Positions 14,295-14,960 of a stretch of DNA of 64,000 nt are shown in pieces (position 1 is the first letter of the stretch; every line of letters starts with the position of its first letter). The DNA comes from Thermococcus stetteri (GTDB lineage: Archaea > Methanobacteriota_B > Thermococci > Thermococcales > Thermococcaceae). The position numbers were made by a program, and so were the translations under genes. The notes beneath the pieces are model-generated. The model saw only the letters and a program-made list of their open reading frames with translations. It had not been told where the DNA came from and made no database searches. The stretch lies in the NCBI RefSeq assembly GCF_017873335.1, contig NZ_JAGGKB010000002.1:124001-188000 (forward strand), in the 5' to 3' direction.

Positions 14295-14350
14295 AGACCT
14301 TCTTCACCACGAGATCTGAGATTTTTACCTCCCGTTTTTCTTCTCAACCT

Positions 14351-14640
14351 GACCTCCTCCCCGCCCTGAAGGGCGAGGGTTCCAACGTTTTAACCCCTCG
14401 CCAGCGGGCGGTTCGGTTTACGGGCACTCATTCCCTACTCCTGTTGCCGGTTTCGGTTCAGCCCGAGGGCACGGTCTTGTGCCCGTTACCCTTACCGGCC
14501 AAAGCCGGATTGGGGTTATCGCTTAGAGACCGAACTCCAGTTCTTGACTGCCCAAACGGGCAGTCCTTCAGGGACGTCTGCCGGCGTCTTCCTCCCAAAG
14601 CGGGAGGACACGATGAAACCCCTCATCTCATCGGGTTGTT
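14351..14640 (-). ncRNA. Possible omega-RNA-like structured RNA in the IS605 remnant
   Basis: Read on the minus strand, the segment before the putative right end holds a chain of GC-rich hairpins: 14591-14607 (CCTCCC/GGGAGG), 14548-14563 (CTGCCC/GGGCAG), 14495-14508 (CCGGC/GCCGG), 14467-14484 (GGGCAC/GTGCCC), then the terminal one at 14359-14378. In IS605 elements the right end encodes the guide RNA of TnpB just before the transposon boundary, so this is the expected place for it. Transcription and function are inference; no tnpB is in this window. Confidence 0.35.
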
Positions 14641-14726
14641 TTGAGTGACCTCAAAGTTTAAAGGGGTTTTGACTGTTGAAAGGCTGTTGGGCGGTTTACT
14701 GCATCCCCGCCCTAAAGGGCGAAGCT
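14351..14726 (-). mobile_element. tnpB-less IS200/IS605-type element (MITE-like remnant)
   Basis: The two ends carry the same subterminal hairpin: CCCCGCCCTGAAGGGCGAGG at 14359-14378 and CCCCGCCCTAAAGGGCGAAG at 14705-14724. On the minus strand the element would begin CTTTAGGGCGGGGATG and finish with CAGGGCGGGGAGGAGGTCA, which resembles left and right ends of IS200/IS605 (IS1341-type) elements in Thermococcales. Only about 376 bases lie between them, too little for TnpA or TnpB. The element therefore seems to be an internal deletion or a non-autonomous derivative. It sits in the accessory island and seems to have landed in a now broken gene. Confidence 0.6.
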
Positions 14727-14960
14727 TTCAGAAGAAAAAACGTAACCGGACTTCACGAGGTTCTCGAGCAGAGACGAAAAGTTGGAGTCGTTGACATAGC
14801 CGGACTTTGGATACGGTGAAAGCAGCACTAACTTGCACCCTGCAGGTTGGCATCTTTGCGCGGGCACGGGTAAAACTAAAATTAGCACATCAATATCGCA
14901 CACAAATTTTCCACCATCCGTTAAGGACGCTCCCAGAACACTCGTTAAATAGATTAGACT
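14712..14960 (-). pseudogene. 3' fragment of an unknown gene, cut by the IS605 remnant
   Basis: An open frame on the minus strand from 14960 reads LTSVLGASLTDGGKFVCDID and ends KSGYVFSSE before running into the element, where it picks up SFAL and a stop. It has no good start: a TAA lies just upstream. Beyond the element the sequence GTTGAGAAGAAAAACGGGAGG then TAA would add VEKKNGR, a plausible original C-terminus. I read it as the remains of a gene interrupted by the insertion. I do not recognise the family. Confidence 0.4.

Follow-up and report, generated by a model that had tools for sequence, protein, structure and literature searches.

A mobile tnpB-less IS200/IS605-type element of Thermococcus stetteri with a candidate orphan omega-RNA

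The window analysed here, a stretch of 64,000 nucleotides from Thermococcus stetteri, contains on its minus strand an element of 393 bp (14349-14741), the ends of which were set from empty sites and from other copies; the initial annotation, which placed it at 14351-14726, had made it slightly short. When joined, the flanks of this copy match three other genomes (G040, G032, and G037) as one unbroken stretch, which gives both the extent of the element and the absence of a target duplication. Since copy and flank both start with G, the left end could be placed to within one base only. The gene around the element is represented by a 3' remnant (14712-14903 and 14296-14348), which has suffered an internal loss of about 0.9 kb compared to the same three genomes.

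A 27-nt direct repeat, 85% identical, lies at the two ends of the element (14358-14384 and 14704-14730) and has a GC-rich hairpin in each unit, in agreement with the matching subterminal hairpins described earlier. The four further hairpins that had been reported before the right end are real stems, but their number was underestimated, since 13 helices, plus the hairpin termed H5, can be recognized. The element was rightly described as tnpB-less: it contains no tnpB, and its sole frame of at least 60 aa, one of 66 aa on the plus strand, is apparently fortuitous. The features are collected in Table 1.

Table 1. Features of the element and of its immediate flanks in the window.
Feature	Position	Strand	Basis
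Whole non-autonomous IS200/IS605-type element	14349-14741	minus	Ten copies in the same genome, exact empty sites, TTAC/TCAG ends common with relatives
Target tetranucleotide TTAC, flanking the left end; presumably used by TnpA as target and by TnpB as TAM	14742-14745	minus	
Left-end subterminal hairpin	14705-14724	minus	Helix 1, conserved, with pairing in 95.5% of cells
Predicted RNA promoter with BRE and TATA box, AAAACCCC TTTAAA	14657-14670	minus	
5' hairpin domain	14545-14652	minus	Helices 2-5 paired in 94-95% of cells, two-sided changes
H3, 3' arm only in the window copy	within the 5' hairpin domain	minus	
H4	14617-14637	minus	
H5	14591-14608	minus	
H6	14573-14588	minus	
H7	14547-14564	minus	
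Putative omega-RNA scaffold (right ~170 nt)	14349-14518	minus	tnpB-only covariance model, Rfam matches, collinear tnpB-linked scaffolds
Scaffold stem I and hairpin A	14488-14516	minus	
Scaffold hairpin B	14467-14484	minus	
Scaffold stem III	14421-14465	minus	
Scaffold GGGGTT stem	14376-14397	minus	
Right-end hairpin	14362-14375	minus	
Predicted guide GTTGAGAAGAAAAACGGGAG, host DNA outside the right end	14329-14348	minus	Omega-RNA architecture

The element had been taken for a lone remnant; it proves instead to belong to a mobile family with ten full copies, each about 393 to 417 bp long, scattered at different sites in the T. stetteri genome, and with relatives in many Thermococcaceae. In a tree of the copies, nine are closely related, and the tenth (L010) groups with copies of another species (G016). 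All ten end on the right in TCAG, and they are preceded by TTAC (eight copies) or TGAC (two copies); among the 60 copies delimited in all genomes, the left-flank tetranucleotide is TTAC in 46, TGAC in four, and CTAC in two. The insertion site of another T. stetteri copy, L007, is uninterrupted in G030. The site of a third, L006 (L006/L118), lies within a coding region; in G030, it has kept TTAC and the right flank, but in T. stetteri, 45 bp have gone from beside the left end of this copy relative to G030.

The assignment to the IS200/IS605 group is based, firstly, on the subterminal imperfect hairpins at both ends (conserved helices 1 and 13) with no terminal inverted repeats; secondly, on insertion on the 3' side of a short, fixed target that is not duplicated; and thirdly, on ends held in common with an autonomous tnpA+tnpB element (L094, in G087) and with a decayed one in T. 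stetteri itself (L031). The element also has the properties of a PATE, that is, near-terminal palindromes and IS605-related ends in the absence of inverted repeats, a transposase, or a target duplication. Between the alternatives first proposed, a MITE mobilized in trans or a domesticated RNA, the scattered copies and empty sites speak for the mobile element and the domestication is not upheld. The sole tnpA gene of the genome (Y1 type, L031:1500-1900) is frameshifted and resides in the decayed IS605, which has element-type ends; movement would therefore need a TnpA from outside, unless the frameshift is a sequencing error.

Some match to the element occurs in 80 of 94 Thermococcaceae genomes, a count that takes in tnpB elements and pieces consisting of ends only. 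At E <= 1e-30, a threshold that the tnpB ends inspected did not reach, matches are found in 38 genomes. Of the 60 delimited elements, an alignment was made of 57 full-length ones, which come from 28 Thermococcaceae genomes. A pattern covering the 5' domain and the scaffold matched 26 contigs, 20 from named Thermococci and six from bacteria (Pseudoalteromonas, Fibrobacter, Streptomyces, Geomonas, Prevotellaceae, and Polynucleobacter), the latter being taken as chance matches. Two copies from two species, L108:200-587 (G011) and L109:201-591 (G007), have an identical right flank and probably represent one old insertion kept in both. There are also terminal-only elements of about 47 bp, several per genome (L024-L027, positions 1490-1550, and L028-L030), in which TTAC is followed by TTTTTTCTTCTGAAAGCCTCGCCCTTCAGGGCGGGGAGGAGGTCAG and the left and right ends are fused at one hairpin.

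The proposal that the locus encodes an orphan omega-RNA has fared well. The tnpB elements of T. stetteri (L011-L022) have their last 55-85 nt in common with the element, while those of G012, G087, and G008 (L093, L094, and L096) have about 173 nt in common, at 73-74% identity; L094, a complete IS605 with both tnpA and tnpB, matches the element at either end. Relatives with tnpB that share these ends, on which the initial annotation had made its proposal depend, thus exist. Moreover, the elements L092 and L110 still encode a short C-terminal remnant of tnpB and must therefore descend from, or have recombined with, tnpB elements.

A covariance model, R1, was built from 32 tnpB-linked RNAs only, and the common transposon end was cut off to avoid circularity. 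It matched in all 23 sources searched and in all other copies of the element tested; in the 64-kb window, it gave a single match, to the element (14414-14519, E=4.2e-10). Rfam, applied to the window at its gathering thresholds, returned tRNAs alone; an E-value scan brought in two matches to the element, HgcC (RF00062; 14336-14486, 35.2 bits, E=1.6e-6, below the gathering score of 50 bits) and sot0042 (RF02656; 14358-14523, 29.5 bits, E=6.6e-6, below the gathering score of 88). The tnpB-linked HgcC copies of T. kodakarensis likewise score 42-44 bits against the gathering score of 50, and the sotRNAs of Halobacterium are omega-RNAs (PMC12558985). One tnpB-linked RNA (L012:1372-1526) weakly matches the Rfam Moco riboswitch, at E=0.006 and short of the gathering score, which could lead to misannotation.

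The scaffold is thus homologous, in sequence and in structure (R1 and the collinear alignment), to the 3'-terminal RNA of tnpB elements, and it ends at the GGTCAG right end, after which comes a flank specific to the site. The guide had been placed just outside the right end, a placement that agrees with the architecture of omega-RNAs, except that the guide would start after GGTCAG (from 14348 downwards) and not after GGTCA. In the empty sites of relatives, the predicted guide sequence follows the equivalent of the TTAC site. Taken together, these sequence data support a mobile, tnpB-less IS200/IS605 element that encodes an omega-RNA.

The left part of the element has features of its own. In each of the 57 aligned copies, a BRE/TATA-like motif follows the left end and precedes the 5' domain; 56 of the 57 have a strict TATA box, compared with four of 702 control tiles taken from other parts of the elements. 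Inspection of complete copies showed about 23 bp between the TATA-like motif and the beginning of the first hairpin, which is the usual distance to the start of transcription in T. kodakarensis (PMC4247193). Judged by these copies, the window copy has some slight damage of its own, a loss of about 20 nt between its TATA box and the first hairpin, and it therefore lacks the 5' arm of H3. The 5' domain was not found in tnpB elements, and in the T. stetteri genome no match covered this domain alone.

Folding of the minus strand gives -172 kcal/mol compared with -143 +/- 6.5 for dinucleotide shuffles (z = -4.4; none of 100 shuffles was as low). On the alignment of 57 elements, a structure of 13 helices and 66 pairs is paired in 94.5% of cells (90.1% when shuffled), a percentage favoured by the partial derivation of the structure from this same alignment; when slid by 1-3 columns, the structure is paired in 37-55% of cells. 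The compensatory changes that had been expected in the stems were indeed found: two-sided changes affect 28 of the 66 pairs, in 169 cells, compared with shuffled means of 15.5 pairs and 61.8 cells, and none of 500 shuffles, a statistic that ignores relatedness among copies, equalled the observed pairing or the two-sided changes. H5, which is out of register in the alignment, was read sequence by sequence and keeps its pairing through the variants CCTCCC/GGGAGG, CCCTCC/GGAGGG, CCACTCC/GGAGTGG, and others, as does H7 through ACTGCC/GGCAGT and ACCGCC/GGCGGT. Such variation argues that it is the RNA, and not a protein, that selection keeps, with the covariation of the 5' domain as the stronger point.

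Some candidate pairings were discarded. A helix that RNAalifold proposed between the TATA region (columns 85-88) and the scaffold (columns 420-424) was dropped because the former is upstream of the predicted start of transcription, and two automatically extended helices (15-19 with 86-90 and 402-406 with 465-469) were judged spurious. The loop of H4 carries a conserved GATGAGATGA, for which a box C/D or k-loop character was considered and is not claimed.

Evidence related to expression comes from T. kodakarensis. The genome G024, which we take to be that of T. kodakarensis KOD1, has an 83% identical copy (G024:1474313-1474524) that has lost its left part and follows the start of a short hypothetical ORF. 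This copy appears to be HgcC4, and its position fits the location published for that RNA, which lies in the 5' region of TK1679 and has a start site in common with this gene (PMC4247193). HgcC4 and HgcC5 were both reported as transcribed in a dRNA-seq study, with no association to a transposase gene (PMC4247193). Since HgcC5, which adjoins a membrane metalloprotease, is one of the terminal-only elements of about 47 bp, not every HgcC match is a full omega-RNA.

As for possible partners, the tnpB genes of T. stetteri have long open frames of 445-455 codons, and their products match solved TnpB structures in sequence. In one pairwise alignment, these products (e.g., L037:973-2289) seem to lack the RuvC-II Glu at its usual place, and the conserved Glu in (V/D)EAFTS may be the second acidic residue of RuvC, relocated. 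The tnpB family is present in 36 of the 38 genomes with a strong match to the element and in 28 of the 56 without (Fisher p=3e-6), a co-occurrence that may reflect overall IS load only; two genomes, G007 and G051, bear elements without a close tnpB. One Thermococcus genome, G016, has an unusually large load of 55 tnpB matches. Stem III differs between the two kinds of RNA, being CGGGC/GCCCG in the elements and GAGGGG/CCCCTC in nearly all tnpB-linked RNAs, which makes the use of the element RNA by local TnpBs uncertain. Among the tnpB elements compared, that of G008 alone has the CGGGC/GCCCG type, and the natural partner, going by stem III, may be a TnpB of this kind.

The reading we favour, and consider fairly probable, is that of a non-autonomous IS200/IS605 (PATE- or MITE-like) element with an orphan, or "ghost", omega-RNA that is used in trans by TnpB. 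Minus-strand transcription would start about 23 bp past the TATA box, and the RNA would consist of the 5' hairpin domain, the scaffold of about 170 nt, and a host-derived guide. Resident tnpB elements would supply the TnpB into which this RNA is loaded; the nuclease would then cut empty sites flanked by TTAC, such that repair restores the copy lost on excision by TnpA. This cut-and-repair would both keep and spread the element, with TnpA, too, being provided in trans by another element. A further step, which we hold to be rather unlikely, is that the element is a mobile RNA gene that parasitizes TnpB: its own promoter and 5' domain, the latter acting as a second RNA domain, would let it compete for the nuclease or modify what the nuclease does. 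The element would then regulate tnpB elements or spread at their cost, as a hyperparasite of archaeal IS605 transposons.

Another explanation is that of an inert MITE, which moves whenever TnpA is available and the RNA of which has no function, the stems being left over from tnpB ancestors. The ends of an IS200/IS605 element are sufficient for mobilization by TnpA, the tnpB remnants in L092 and L110 attest to descent from, or recombination with, tnpB elements, and recent copies would retain their stems simply by descent. However, helices 2-5 of the 5' domain have two-sided changes, and since this domain is absent from tnpB elements, its covariation cannot come from them; moreover, the promoter motif is present in every aligned copy, and the elements retain pairing in a stem III of their own type. 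An inert MITE is therefore improbable. There is still less to be said for a regulatory RNA domesticated by the host, whether as the guide of a TldR-like, nuclease-dead TnpB or as a free-standing sRNA. The 5' region and start site that HgcC4 shares with TK1679 (PMC4247193) and the right flank common to G011 and G007 are what such an RNA might lead one to expect, but the copies occupy many unrelated sites, have precise empty sites in relatives, and have multiplied within lineages, all of which fits selfish spread and makes domestication very unlikely. Finally, TnpA of IS200/IS605 recognizes subterminal DNA hairpins, which are present here, but the idea that the internal hairpins, too, work as single-stranded DNA in transposition is hardly credible given that the end hairpins are enough for TnpA, that elements of about 47 bp with one hairpin exist, and that the internal helices lie downstream of a conserved promoter and fit RNA models built from transcribed tnpB RNAs.

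The ghost omega-RNA that we favour has counterparts in several known systems. The sotRNA of haloarchaeal IS1341-type tnpB (RF02656, sot0042) has collinear helices over 174 model positions and a right-end hairpin; sotRNAs, however, overlap the 3' end of tnpB (PMC12558985), whereas here there is no tnpB and there are a separate promoter and a 5' domain. HgcC (RF00062; HgcC1-5 of T. kodakarensis) matches the 3' scaffold and the terminal hairpin, although it was described as a non-coding RNA without a link to omega-RNAs (PMC4247193), its model covers part of the scaffold only, and its matches also take in tnpB-linked copies and the terminal-only elements of about 47 bp (HgcC5). No paper combining HgcC and TnpB was found in a search of the literature accessible without subscription. 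The element would offer a function for an archaeal RNA family that has no stated role in PMC4247193, and the use of its omega-RNA in trans could be tested in T. kodakarensis, where one copy is already reported to be transcribed. What appears to be new is a ghost-type element that is archaeal and family-wide and has both a promoter and a 5' RNA domain, the latter a conserved module apparently under selection and not seen in tnpB elements, together with the link between HgcC and omega-RNAs.

The PATEs of Haloquadratum walsbyi likewise lack a transposase and do not duplicate their target; they have palindromes near their ends, a relationship to IS605-type transposons, and strain-specific insertions, as well as terminal-only forms due to deletion between the palindromes, comparable to the 47-bp elements here. 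In the parts of that description consulted, no RNA gene, promoter, or covarying stems are mentioned (PMC3119063). A close parallel is with the Fanzor ghost loci of Spizellomyces punctatus, the omega-RNAs of which work with SpuFz1 (PMC10432273). These loci, too, are multi-copy and consist of transposon ends and an omega-RNA without a nuclease gene (PMC10432273); their ends resemble those of the nuclease elements, and their scaffold is unlike the protein-linked one in one stem. They are, however, eukaryotic, Fanzor-linked, and about 550 nt long, with inverted repeats and a demonstrated activity with the nuclease, whereas the element described here is archaeal and TnpB-linked, with IS200/IS605 ends, a predicted promoter, and a 5' domain. 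It would be their prokaryotic counterpart: a transposon reduced to a guide RNA, with its nucleases encoded elsewhere.
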